Assembly (NCBI GenBank): GCA_027484985.1
Contig: JAIXRW010000047.1
Coordinates: forward strand, 62,001-126,000
Direction: 5' to 3'
DNA from: Rhodobacter sp.
GTDB lineage: Bacteria; Pseudomonadota; Alphaproteobacteria; Rhodobacterales; Rhodobacteraceae
DNA: 64,000 bases
Within the stretch, counting starts at the first letter, position 1. Every line of letters begins with the position of its first letter. Both the position numbers and the translations under genes were made by a program. This document shows, one piece after another, positions 18,783 to 64,000 of this stretch. Below the pieces are notes generated by a model that was given only the letters and a program-made list of their open reading frames with translations, searched no databases and was not told where the DNA came from.

Positions 18783-18952
18783 GGGGGGCTGTCTGCCCCC
18801 CACGCCCGCGTTGCGGGCTCCCCCCGAGGATATTTGGACGAGCGTGAAGCAGACGGGATGCAGGGGTAACGTGCAAGGCTGCGTCTTTCATACTCGTTCA
18901 AATATCCTCGGGGGAGGCGCGCCCTGGCGCGCCGCGGGGGCAGACAGCCCCC
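18783..18952. repeat. Head-to-head pair of palindromic intergenic elements
   Basis: Left copy 18783-18846 (GGGGGGCTGTCTGCCCCCC ... CCCCCCGAGGATATTTGG ... GTGAA) and right copy 18886-18952 (TTTCATACTCGTTCAAATAT ... GGGGGCAGACAGCCCCC) face each other across about 40 bases. Together with the terminator at 19022-19059 this explains most of the 484-bp gap between the carB start and the permease stop. Confidence 0.85.
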
Positions 18953-60097: not shown

Positions 60098-60145
60098 GGG
60101 GGGCACGCCCCCCGCACCCCCGTGGATATTTGGGCGAGCATGAAA
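60098..60145. repeat. Truncated palindromic intergenic element
   Basis: GGGGGGCACGCCCCCC then CACCCCCGTGGATATTTGG and GCATGAAA. The middle palindrome is missing. The 3' end abuts the ribosome site (AAAGGCGGG) of the next gene, so the element may supply part of its leader. Confidence 0.65.
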
Positions 60146-60154
60146 GGCGGGACG

Positions 60155-60820
60155 ATGCAGGTGATCGACATGCTTGTAACGGGGGCCAACCGCGGCATCG
60201 GGCTGGCGCTGGTGCAGCACGCGGTGCGGGGCGGGGCGCGGGTGGCGGGCACCTGCCGTGGTGCCGCGCCCGATGTGGCGGGGGCAGACTGGCAGCGGCT
60301 GGATGTGGCCGATGCGGGCGCGCAGCGGGACATGGCGGCGCGGCTGGCGGGGCGGCCGCTTGGGCTGCTGGTCTGCAATGCGGGTGTGTACCTTGACGGG
60401 GACGAGGGGCTGGACGGCTATGCGCCTGATATCTGGGCCGAGACATTTGCGGTCAATGTGACGGGTGTGTTCCTGACGGTGCAGGCCTTGCTGCCCAATC
60501 TGCGGGCGGGGCGGGGGAAGATCGCCATCATATCGTCGCAGATGGGATCGGATACGCGGGCGACGGGGGGCAGCTATATCTATCGCGCGTCGAAGGCGGC
60601 GGCGCTGAACCTTGGGCGCAACCTTGCCACCGATTTGCGGGCCGAGGGGATTGCGGTGGGCATCTACCACCCCGGCTGGGTGCGGACCGATATGGGGGGC
60701 ACGGGGGCCGATATTTCCGAGGACGAGGCGGCAACGGGGCTGCTGGCGCGGTTCGCGCATCTGTCGATGGCGACCACGGGATGCTTTGAAAACTGGGACG
60801 GCAGGCCGCATCCGTTCTGA
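60155..60820 (+). CDS. Short-chain dehydrogenase/reductase
   Basis: 221 residues with MLVTGANRGIGLALVQ (cofactor loop), CNAGVY, the serine in IAIISSQMGSD, YIYRASKAAALN (Tyr-x3-Lys) and PGWVRTDMGG, the signature of the sniffer/carbonyl-reductase-like SDR group. Start ATG 60155 after AAAGGCGGG; upstream starts at 60122 and 60140 lie in the repeat element. Substrate unknown. Confidence 0.85.
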   Translation: MQVIDMLVTGANRGIGLALVQHAVRGGARVAGTCRGAAPDVAGADWQRLDVADAGAQRDMAARLAGRPLGLLVCNAGVYLDGDEGLDGYAPDIWAETFAVNVTGVFLTVQALLPNLRAGRGKIAIISSQMGSDTRATGGSYIYRASKAAALNLGRNLATDLRAEGIAVGIYHPGWVRTDMGGTGADISEDEAATGLLARFAHLSMATTGCFENWDGRPHPF

Positions 60821-60829
60821 GGCGCAGCC

Positions 60830-61213
60830 CTATGCCGCGCCGCGTTCTGACTGTGCATCGAATGTGGCGCGGGCGGTGTCGATGGCTGCGTGATTGTCGA
60901 GTGCCCATTGCGCCAGCACCGAGACGGGCCGGAGCAGGGATTGCCCGAGCGGGGTGAGTTCGTATTCGACCTTGGGCGGGATGGTCGCATGGTAATGGCG
61001 GCTGACAAGGCCGTCACGTTCCAGATCGCGCAGGGTAAGCGAGAGCATGCGCTGCGAGATTTCAAGTTCGCGTTTCAGTTCGGAAAAGCGGCGGCGGCCT
61101 TCGCGCAGGGCGAAGATGACAAGCACGCTCCACCGGTCGCCCACGCGGGCGAGGACGGTGTTGATGGTCTGGCAATGGGCCCGTGCGGCGGGGCAGGTTT
61201 CCATCGGTATCAT
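60830..61213 (-). CDS. HxlR-family transcriptional regulator
   Basis: 127-residue winged-helix protein: N-terminal conserved cysteine (METCPAARAHCQ), RVGDRWSVLVIFALREG, RFSELKRELEISQRMLSLTLRDLERDGLVSR (recognition and wing), and a C-terminal dimer helix. HxlR proteins often sense electrophiles or redox stress through that cysteine and control an adjacent oxidoreductase. Divergent from a nitroreductase gene, the classic arrangement. Start at 61213 or 61204. Confidence 0.88.
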   Translation of the reverse strand: MIPMETCPAARAHCQTINTVLARVGDRWSVLVIFALREGRRRFSELKRELEISQRMLSLTLRDLERDGLVSRHYHATIPPKVEYELTPLGQSLLRPVSVLAQWALDNHAAIDTARATFDAQSERGAA

Positions 61214-61224
61214 CCCTGTGACCT

Positions 61225-61300
61225 GCACACAAAAATGTGCGTTCTTGCGGGGGCTGTCCAGTTACTATATGTGACGCGGTATCGAATGTATACCCGGTAT
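61225..61300. promoter_or_regulatory. Candidate HxlR operator region
   Basis: Between the divergent regulator and oxidoreductase: inverted repeat GCACA-N6-TGTGC (61225-61240), AGTTACTATATGTGAC (61260-61274), and GGTAT-N7-ATACC (61278-61294) with a further GGTAT at 61296. AT-rich inverted repeats of TACTAT type are known HxlR-family sites. Confidence 0.4.
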
Positions 61301-61338
61301 CGGAATGGTTCCGCGGGTGACGGTGAAGGAAGACAGCA

Positions 61339-61974
61339 ATGCTGCACGAGCGTTTGAACTGGCGTTATGCCACCAAGAAGATGGACCCCGCCCGCAAGGT
61401 GCCGGAAGAAAAGGTCGCGGCGATTCTGGAAGCGGTGCAATTGGCGCCCACCTCGAGCGGTTTGCAGCCCTTTGAGGTGTTTGTGGTGACCAATCCCGAG
61501 GTGCGGGCCAAGTTGCGGGCTGCGGCCTATGACCAGGCGCAGGTGACGGAAGGATCGCATCTGCTGGTCTTTGCGGCATGGGACACTTACACCGAAGCGC
61601 GGATCGATGCGGTGGTGGCCGATATCGTGGCCCAGCGCGGGGCTGCGGCGGAAGCGGCGGTGAAGGGCTATTACGACCAGTTGAAGGGGTCGTATGTGCC
61701 GCGCAGCGCGGAAGAGAATTACCAGCATGCGGCGCGGCAGGCCTATATCGCCTTTGGCCTTGCCCTGACGGCCGCGGCCTTTGAAGAGGTCGATGCGACG
61801 CCGATGGAGGGCTTTGACCCGGCGCAGGTGGACGAGATTCTGGGCCTGAAGGAAAAGGGTCTGCGGTCGGTCACGCTGTTGCCGCTGGGCTATCGGGCAG
61901 CGGAAGGCGACTGGCTGGTCGGCCAGAAGAAGGTGCGCCGCGGTCTGGACCGTCTGGTGACGAAGGTCGCCTGA
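61339..61974 (+). CDS. NAD(P)H-dependent nitroreductase/oxidoreductase (NfsB-like)
   Basis: 211-residue FMN protein of the nitroreductase superfamily: LNWRYATKKMDPARKVPEE, LAPTSSGLQPFEVFVVTNPE, GSHLLVFAAWDTYTE and SVTLLPLGYRAAEGDWL. Likely reduces nitroaromatics, quinones or electrophiles, under control of the divergent HxlR protein. RBS GGTGAAGGAAG precedes ATG 61339. Followed by a good terminator. Confidence 0.88.
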   Translation: MLHERLNWRYATKKMDPARKVPEEKVAAILEAVQLAPTSSGLQPFEVFVVTNPEVRAKLRAAAYDQAQVTEGSHLLVFAAWDTYTEARIDAVVADIVAQRGAAAEAAVKGYYDQLKGSYVPRSAEENYQHAARQAYIAFGLALTAAAFEEVDATPMEGFDPAQVDEILGLKEKGLRSVTLLPLGYRAAEGDWLVGQKKVRRGLDRLVTKVA

Positions 61975-62001
61975 TCCGGTTGCTTCCTGTCGGCTGATGG
62001 G

Positions 62002-62037
62002 CCCTGTTCCCGAAAGGGGGCAGGGTCTTTTCCTTTG
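62002..62037 (+). terminator. Terminator of the nitroreductase gene
   Basis: CCCTGTTCCC-GAAA-GGGGGCAGGG stem (10 pairs, two T-G) followed by TCTTTTCCTTT, 28 bases after the stop. Confidence 0.85.
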
Positions 62038-62060
62038 GTGTGGCCTGCGGGGGGAGGTGA

Positions 62061-62815
62061 GTATTTGGGCAAGGGTGAATGGGGGGCGTTAAGGTTAACG
62101 GGTTTGCGTTCCGGCTTGGGGCAGATGCGCGGGTTGGGGAGGTGGTCTGGCGGTTTGTCCTTGGGGTGGGGCGGGTTCTGGTTTGGCGGCGGGGCGTTAA
62201 GGTTAACGGCGGCGCGTTAAGGTTAACCGCTTGCAGGTTGGGCGCATGGCGTATTCGCGGATTGGGGGATGGGGGCGGTCATCCTTGGGGCTAATCGTCC
62301 GGGTCGGTGGTTCTTTGGTCGCGAGGCGTCAAGGTTGACGCCGGAAGCCATCGCAGTTGGGATCAGCGCGGTTGAGCTGGCTGTCGGTCGTGCCTTTCGG
62401 GGCCGTAGCTGGGGGCGGTGAGCCTTGGGGTTTAACGGGCGGTTCACCTTGGCTCAAATACTCATGGCTCCGTTGCCGTGACGATCCGGCGGCAGGATTT
62501 GGGGCTGGGGGGTGAGGGCCCTGCCTTGGGGTGGGGGCGTTAAGGTTAACGCGTGGGTTCATCTTGGTTCGAATACGCGCGGGCTTGGGGGGCGGTCGGG
62601 CGGGAGGTCTTTGGGCGGGGGGCGTTAGGGACGTGCCTTTTGGCCGGGGGCGTTAAGGTTAATGCGTGGGTTCACCTTGGTTCAAATACTCGTGGACGTG
62701 GGGAGCGGGGCGGTCGGGCGGGAGGTCTTTGGGCGGGGCGTGCGGGATGTGGCTTTTGGCTGGGGGCGTTCAAGTCAGTGCATGGTTTCACCCTTGTCCA
62801 AATACTCGGGCCACG
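62061..62815. repeat. Tandem array of about 110-bp units upstream of rpsA
   Basis: The 1.09-kb gap before rpsA carries CGTTAAGGTTAACG or close variants at 62087, 62195, 62215 (ends ACC), 62327 (CGTCAAGGTTGACG), 62538, 62651 (ends ATG) and a worn copy at 62767; main spacing is about 105-116 bases. The best units (from 62538 and 62651) then read GCGTGGGTTCACCTTGGTTC, AAATACTCGTGG and later GGGAGGTCTTTGGGCGG. The AAATACTC part matches the AT box of the dispersed palindromic elements. No gene is seen in the array. Confidence 0.8.
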
Positions 62816-63062
62816 GTTGGGGTGGCGATCTGGGTGGGGGATATGGGCTGTGGGTGGCAGGGCGCGGTCGGGGGGCGTTTTGCTTGCCCGGCCAAGTTTC
62901 CTTGCGTCGGGGGCGGGATGGGTATATGGGGCGCCCATCCTGAGGGGCAGGACGGGGCGATCCGGTTTTCCGGAGCGGGCTTTCCTGTTTGCCGCAGGGC
63001 CACCACAGACCGGCGGAGACAACCGCATGGCCAGCAACATCTGATAAAGGAAAAACTCGCAC

Positions 63063-64000
63063 ATGTGCGCCAAAGCATCCATGGATGAATTCGAAGCCCT
63101 TCTGAAAGAGTCGTTCGAGATCGACACCCCCGAAGAAGGCACCGTCGTCAAAGGCCGGGTCATCGCGATCGAAGCGGGACAGGCCATCATCGACGTCGGC
63201 TACAAGATGGAAGGTCGGATCGACCTTAAGGAATTCGCGAATCCGGGCGAAAACCCCGAGATCAATGTCGGCGATGAAGTCGAGGTTTACCTTGACCGCG
63301 TCGAAAACGCGCGGGGCGAGGCTGTCATCAGCCGCGAGAAAGCCCGCCGCGAAGAAGCATGGGACCGTCTGGAAAAGGCCTATGCGTCGGAAACCCGCGT
63401 GGACGGTGCGATCTTCGGGCGCGTCAAGGGCGGCTTCACGGTCGATCTGGGCGGCGCTGTTGCCTTCCTTCCCGGCAGCCAGGTCGATGTGCGCCCCGTG
63501 CGCGACGCGGGCCCGCTGATGGGCATGAAGCAGCCGTTCCAGATTCTGAAAATGGACCGTCGCCGTGGCAACATCGTTGTTTCGCGCCGTGCGATCCTTG
63601 AAGAATCGCGCGCCGAACAGCGTGCCGAAGTCATCGGCAACCTGACCGAAGGCCAGTCGATCGACGGCGTGGTGAAGAACATCACCGAATACGGTGCCTT
63701 CGTTGACCTTGGCGGCGTGGACGGCCTGCTGCACGTGACCGATATGGCGTGGCGCCGTGTGAACCATCCGTCGGAAATCCTTGCCATTGGTGAAACTGTC
63801 AAAGTGCAGGTCATCAAGATCAACAAGGAAACCCACCGCATCAGCCTTGGCATGAAGCAGCTTCAGGCCGATCCGTGGGATGCCGTGGAAAAAGCCTATC
63901 CGCTGGGTTCGGTCCACAAGGGCCGTGTGACCAACATCACCGATTACGGCGCCTTTGTTGAGCTGGAAGCCGGTGTTGAAGGTCTGGTCCACGTTTCGGA
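63063..64000 (+). CDS. rpsA: 30S ribosomal protein S1, truncated by the window end
   Basis: The frame from ATG 63063 runs open to the end of the window (about 312 residues). Four S1 domains are visible in order: GTVVKGRVIAIEAGQAIIDVG; the second with GAIFGRVKGGFTVDLGG; the third with GVVKNITEYGAFVDLGGVDG; and the start of the fourth, GRVTNITDYGAFVELEAG. S1 carries mRNA to the ribosome. Codon use is more selective than in neighbours, as for highly expressed genes. AAAGGA lies about 14 bases before the ATG; an in-frame ATG 63081 is an alternative. Roughly 245 residues are missing. Confidence 0.97.
   Translation, partial: MCAKASMDEFEALLKESFEIDTPEEGTVVKGRVIAIEAGQAIIDVGYKMEGRIDLKEFANPGENPEINVGDEVEVYLDRVENARGEAVISREKARREEAWDRLEKAYASETRVDGAIFGRVKGGFTVDLGGAVAFLPGSQVDVRPVRDAGPLMGMKQPFQILKMDRRRGNIVVSRRAILEESRAEQRAEVIGNLTEGQSIDGVVKNITEYGAFVDLGGVDGLLHVTDMAWRRVNHPSEILAIGETVKVQVIKINKETHRISLGMKQLQADPWDAVEKAYPLGSVHKGRVTNITDYGAFVELEAGVEGLVHVS

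Follow-up and report, generated by a model that had tools for sequence, protein, structure and literature searches.

On balance, we favour the reading in which the tandem array upstream of rpsA is a lineage-specific intergenic repeat that grew from a gene-end element and has rpsA as an incidental neighbour, while the 14-mer at its core would be a genus-level protein-binding site located at gene ends prone to duplication. The array is about 800 bases long, runs head to tail from 62075 to 62870 on the forward strand, and occupies the gap between a nitroreductase gene and rpsA. All positions are those of the window, by which we mean the whole 64-kb stretch of Rhodobacter DNA that was analysed; the genome holding it is designated G000. 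The 14-mer, CGTTAAGGTTAACG, received the working name TTAA14.

Upstream of the array, genes for an HxlR-type regulator and a short-chain dehydrogenase precede a gene of the nitroreductase family (61339..61974, forward strand; Pfam PF00881, E 6.4e-25), which lies directly before the array. A terminator-like hairpin with a T-run follows at its 3′ side (61999..62028, forward strand, 13 pairs in the scan); it is weak evidence by itself because shuffled sequences average 2.2 such matches, though its position is as expected. An AT box in forward orientation (GAGTATTTGGGCAAGGGTGAA, 62059..62079), inverted with respect to the boxes of the array, stands ahead of the first TTAA14. This first copy is exact (62087..62100) and is located 112 bases past the end of the nitroreductase gene, with the hairpin in between. 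The array was split by hand into seven alignable units of 101-132 bases. The motif search placed further forward-strand copies of TTAA14 at 62195..62208 (exact), 62215..62228 (one mismatch, in a 20-base local duplication detected by TRF), 62327..62340 (two mismatches, CGTCAAGGTTGACG, with the dyad kept), 62538..62551 (exact), and 62651..62664 (one mismatch). Two unit positions, 62424..62437 and 62767..62780 on the same strand, are decayed, with a best match of five mismatches. Units 4-7 carry leftward-facing AT boxes on the reverse strand, at 62443..62463, 62558..62578 (degenerate), 62671..62691, and 62787..62807. Within the array itself, the same scan gave no terminator-like hairpin.

Between the array and rpsA, the forward-strand region 62895..62945 (TTTCCTTGCG ... 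TATATGG ... CATCCTGA) resembles the corresponding DNA of relatives, from which we infer a putative rpsA promoter region; a consensus scan detected no sigma-70 site in it. The start of rpsA follows (63063..63998, forward strand), with S1 domains (PF00575) in four stretches, and the gene runs off the window; its sequence is most similar to that of Rhodobacteraceae. It was also possible to see a conserved rpsA leader, AGACCGGCGGAGACAACCGCATGGCC, at 63007-63032, nearly identical in the six relatives compared (6/6), for which no Rfam family scored above the gathering score.

The initial annotation had described about seven copies of the 14-mer at roughly 110-base spacing between 62061 and 62815. 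The number is correct for the unit positions, but only five copies fall within one mismatch, to which one with two mismatches is added; the array does lie in that interval, but the hand split carries it on to about 62870. The periodicity was borne out. At lags of 104-118 bases, 166 pairs of 14-mers matched, whereas 60 shuffles gave 8.2 on average and never more than 38; TRF reported 62488-62805 with a period of 116 and 2.8 copies. The right half is clearly periodic (134 pairs; shuffle maximum 14), while the left half is less regular, with 19 pairs (shuffle maximum 10) and more of them, 35, at lags of 119-133. An AT box had been assigned to most units, which barely stands, with four boxes in seven units and the one at 62558 degenerate; it is indeed the same box as in the dispersed palindromic elements of the window. 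Counting both strands and up to three mismatches, TTAA14 has 17 matches in the window where 0.93 would be expected; 11 belong to the array and the other 6 are scattered. None of 100 shuffles reached 17. Another tandem repeat of the window is located at 1560-1945, with a period of 213, 1.8 copies, and 80% matches.

Repeated sites at a near-constant spacing, upstream of a conserved promoter-like region, could be operators that tune the expression of rpsA, and an amplified regulatory module of this gene had been suggested. The comparison of rpsA loci argues against it. Allowing two mismatches, TTAA14 was absent before rpsA in all 18 congeners (946-1500 bases examined; in G297 and G301 the search was for TTAA14 alone, in the others also for the AT box). 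Allowing one mismatch, it was absent from the 1,300 bases upstream of rpsA at 80 other loci, which were the best matches of an rpsA search, a few of them with odd organism labels and two with a shorter upstream region (L096, 604 bases; L132, 194 bases). The array itself lies upstream of the putative promoter region at 62895-62945, the arrays found elsewhere adjoin other genes, and TTAA14 is scarce in divergent gaps and prefers the 3′ ends of genes. Taking these results into account, we regard a module of rpsA as very unlikely, although an effect of the array on rpsA in the window's strain alone is possible.

The other neighbour of the array was examined in the same manner. An orthologue of the nitroreductase gene, with 80-87% identity, is present in 4 of the 18 congeners (G296, G300, G307, and G308), and the surrounding 3.5 kb contained neither TTAA14 (up to two mismatches) nor the AT box in each case; three of these genomes have no TTAA14 at all. 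In the same four, another reading frame comes between the nitroreductase gene and rpsA (60122-63062 of the window compared with L379-L382), and wherever the upstream DNA of rpsA was read closely in congeners, the preceding gene differs from that of the window. The nitroreductase-rpsA junction is thus unlike that of the congeners compared and, since gene order differs, the gap upstream of rpsA is not strictly the same in them. Considering that TTAA14 is found neither at rpsA nor at the nitroreductase gene of congeners, the array is new relative to both neighbours. In two other relatives (loci L069 and L072), rpsA is immediately preceded by a gene whose 3′ end is the same, and approximately 200-250 bases separate the two, so the extra DNA in the window corresponds to the array. 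From these sequence comparisons, the position of the array beside rpsA is probably incidental.

The motif itself is widespread in the genus. With up to one mismatch, TTAA14 has 243 matches in total (palindromic copies of G296 being counted on both strands), spread over 15 of the 19 genomes at 3 to 35 per genome; the reversed pattern has 23. Its absence from 4 of the 19 genomes implies that the job of the motif is dispensable. Of 295 genomes sampled across the family, 31 had exact CGTTAASSTTAACG; among those outside the genus, 3-9 copies were found in five and one or two in the others, and single matches of this kind mean little because the reversed control matches about 45 genomes once or twice.

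The placement with respect to genes was studied in 187 of the 243 copies: 10 of the 13 in G000, two to four each from G295, G296, G297, G299, G302, G309, G310, and G311, and nearly all from the remaining genomes. Sites at less than 150 bases from the end of a stretch and copies with identical 134-base surroundings were dropped, L170-L172 and L183-L185 were attributed to G309-G311 by listing order, and genes were called with our own hexamer script. A motif spread evenly through coding DNA at chance frequency would have told against the initial annotation, but 186 of the 187 copies are not inside called genes; one is, and three overlap the end of a called gene by 6 bases. By site, the flanking genes are convergent for 90 copies, run in the same direction for 81, and are divergent for 12; 3 copies have no flank. 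When the count is made by locus, convergent gaps account for 74 of 139 and divergent gaps for 9. The corresponding numbers are 25 and 43 among 207 control gaps, which come from 10-kb stretches sampled from G306 and G104 (40 in all). The convergent excess has a p of 1e-16 when orthologous loci are treated as independent, which they are not.

Many of these loci, identified by their flanking genes, are common to several species. G104 shares 16 and 18 of its 24 loci with G301 and G303, respectively, and the three genomes mutually share 16 to 18 of 24 to 26; the loci common to G305 and G306 are 14 of 14 in one and 14 of 17 in the other. For all remaining pairs among the six well-sampled genomes, 4 to 8 loci are in common, with 4, 5, and 7 of the 24 loci of G104 common to G298, G305, and G306, respectively. 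At most one of the five loci of G000 is common to any genome. In the alignments, TTAA14 stands out against diverged flanks at orthologous gene ends, a contrast which, as that between motif and rest of the unit in the arrays, arises partly by selection because the motif was used to find loci and arrays; no such inflation affects the sharing rate. TTAA14 looks like a real conserved gene-end site, undescribed as far as our searches reach. That its copies are repeated protein-binding sites is plausible, in view of their conservation at orthologous gene ends and their nearly always extragenic position.

The form of the motif is in agreement with this. TTAA14 is a near-palindrome, with TTAA..TTAA as its dyad and GG as an asymmetric centre; 50 of 71 single mismatches fall at the outer positions 1, 2, 13, and 14. 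They are mirrored at positions 2 and 13 (14 and 20), but the mirror fails at positions 6 and 9 (8 vs 1), a pattern that fits the site of a dimer with an asymmetric centre.

Two other boxes accompany TTAA14. Terminator-like palindromes distributed across the window have the AT box as their inner end; with up to three mismatches the box has 108 matches genome-wide and none for the reversed control, and among relatives there were 22 matches in the 80 loci compared with 3 for the control. Several places of the window, 18783-18952 among them, show large palindromes that resemble terminators, with GGGGGCTGTCTGCCCCC stems and with AT boxes that point towards each other, and a further dispersed palindrome, resembling ATCCCCGCG-AAGCGGGGATC, has three copies in the window (15185, 24810, and 41763). 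A LexA-like GTTC spacing in one copy of the AT box was among the likenesses considered, as were integron attC sites. The second box is GTGCNG-N6-GT-NNN-CACGCNGCG, mostly at 22, 24, or 27 bases from TTAA14. The 26-mer form of this box is present in 11 of the 19 genomes, at 4 to 41 copies in each, with 3 control matches; G000 has none. The companion box differs between species at one gene end, where G000 combines an AT box with two copies of TTAA14 and five other species combine the second box with TTAA14. Among the 187 copies, 63 have neither box within 75 bases.

In most of the listed copies of the second box the spelling is typical of the species: GGGCAC in G303 and G104, GGCCAC in G301, CAGCAC in 8 of 8 copies of G295 and 4 of 4 of G299, and mostly ATGCAC in G297, G298, G302, and G306. 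This looks like concerted change of dispersed copies. Five pairs of second boxes, in G301, G302, G303, and G104, are spaced by 115-116 bases, near the period of the rpsA array.

Considering that TTAA14 is located at gene ends and that the AT box elements resemble terminator tails, the motif and its neighbours might belong to structures of 3′ untranslated regions or to small RNAs. Several results make this highly improbable. Where an AT box lies within 250 bases of TTAA14, it faces inward at 82 of the 187 copies and away at 29, so that TTAA14 is mostly past the inner end of the box; by eye, the motif allows only a short and weak hairpin; and between genes of the same direction it is oriented with the genes in 41 cases and against them in 40. 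In the region 61000-64000 no Rfam family scored above the gathering score, and the one sub-threshold match was chance-like.

The orientation of TTAA14 was also compared with replication, with replichores defined by GC skew in twenty 10-kb samples per genome. Around the motif, the mean GC skew is positive in its own sense; where TTAA14 is opposed to the flanking genes the mean is still positive, with only 54-72% of the sites positive. The sense of the leading strand was found at 15 of 17 loci in G306 and 15 of 25 in G104 (pooled 30 of 42, p 0.008) and for 43 of 66 second boxes (p 0.019). The leading-strand orientation of TTAA14 is thus mixed between genomes and suggestive only.

Arrays are not limited to the neighbourhood of rpsA. 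At least two copies of TTAA14 are present at 23 of 123 loci in seven genomes, with spacings of 116 in G104, 118 in G306 and in part of the G305 array, 129-134 and 189 in G298, 121-155 in G303, and 166 and 213 in G301. One gene gap has repeated TTAA14 in four species (L247 of G305, L316 of G306, L249 of G298, and L179 of G302), spaced by 118 in G305 and G306 and by 189 in G298, with two copies 322 apart in G302. The number of copies at an orthologous gap differs between G305 and G306; for the rpsA array, the comparison with congeners is one of presence or absence.

Nevertheless, the array could be a neutral minisatellite in which both the repeat and TTAA14 are without function, the G-rich noncoding DNA slipping and duplicating and carrying the motif along. 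We take a strong G skew as typical of unconstrained leading-strand DNA, and the forward strand of 62060-62880 is 45% G and 19% C. Since two of the seven unit positions have no intact TTAA14 and the motif is not specially kept in the last three units, u5-u7 (conservation rank 20 of 71), the array may be decaying neutral sequence; it was also not found at the places compared in congeners. On the other hand, single TTAA14 sites are common to species at the same gene ends while their flanks have diverged, and they are in excess in convergent gaps. Moreover, TTAA14 was the best-kept 14-column window in 8 of 8 arrays with all chosen units counted, once in a tie between two units (unit starts being hand-chosen, one masked G303 unit left out, and two of the arrays consisting of two units); in the window array with all its units the values were 0.73 for TTAA14 vs 0.56. 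We consider it rather unlikely that the array and its motif are neutral throughout.

According to the favoured reading of a gene-end binding site within a lineage-specific repeat, a DNA-binding protein would recognise the TTAA14 dyad and act where transcription from both sides stops, as a roadblock or as a nucleoid or supercoil-handling site, for example. This putative work at transcription stops and meeting supercoils is suggested because TTAA14 sits between converging genes. A role of this kind has been hypothesised for REPs (PMC3733652). The duplications would be driven by stalling or slippage at bound sites, and the array would have grown by head-to-tail duplication of an element made of AT box and TTAA14 after the nitroreductase gene. 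A bolder version, which we consider rather unlikely, is that the protein marks the zone where convergent genes meet, with a replication-strand bias, and stalls polymerases or forks, so that the site itself would breed arrays of its surroundings repeatedly and independently, the one at rpsA among them.

The rpsA array by itself is a local curiosity, and TTAA14 is a small and clean gene-end site for which 19 genomes supply comparative data. Should it be bound by a protein, TTAA14 would be a testable example of a boundary element between convergent bacterial genes, and the separately grown arrays would offer a natural series on why sites become repeat-prone.

No report of the TTAA14 core, on either strand, was found in the open-licence literature, in line with the initial annotation, which knew of no description; among the literature matches listed, nothing fitted such repeats in Rhodobacteraceae, and none of those for AT-box strings was on the subject by its title. 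With respect to known systems, CtrA-type sites have the consensus TTAA-N7-TTAA. TTAA14 resembles them in its TTAA half sites and in its occurrence in an alphaproteobacterium but differs in the spacing, TTAA-N2-TTAA, and in its location mostly at gene ends. The array shares its AT box with the terminator-like elements of Rhodobacteraceae, whose end the box forms in the window; the array units, in contrast, combine the AT box with TTAA14, and the scan detected no terminator-like hairpin in them.

TTAA14 resembles REP, BIME, and REPIN sequences in being palindromic, dispersed, and extragenic (186 of 187 copies not inside a called gene). REPs and REPINs are described as lying mainly between genes that are convergent or unidirectional, at times in tandem clusters together with their flanks (PMC3733652, PMC3116915). 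A mobile repeat of this kind, or of the MITE kind, spread by a transposase in trans, would account for a short palindromic motif dispersed at gene ends and sometimes clustered, as these sources describe (PMC3116915, PMC3733652). However, REPs are given there as palindromes of 20-40 bp, most with a GTAG or CGTC tag (PMC3733652), whereas TTAA14 has 14 bp and no such tag, and they usually exceed 100 copies (PMC2817692), against tens of copies for TTAA14. Many TTAA14 positions are common to several species. The RAYT (Y1_Tnp) transposase model PF01797 gave no match above the curated cut-off in any of the 19 genomes; there was one sub-threshold match, in G301 (E 7.8e-4), and a control search was positive in 5 of 14 genomes. 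We rejected the identification as REP/RAYT on the 14 bp form without tag and on the lack of a RAYT above cut-off in the 19 genomes, and spread by a transposase is quite improbable.

The array itself resembles the intergenic minisatellites of bacteria, or VNTRs, since its head-to-tail copies are above chance, and the arrays as a group have units of about 100-200 bases and a copy number that varies. They differ from ordinary minisatellites in that the arrays of several loci have one common 14-mer, which is the best-kept part of those tested.
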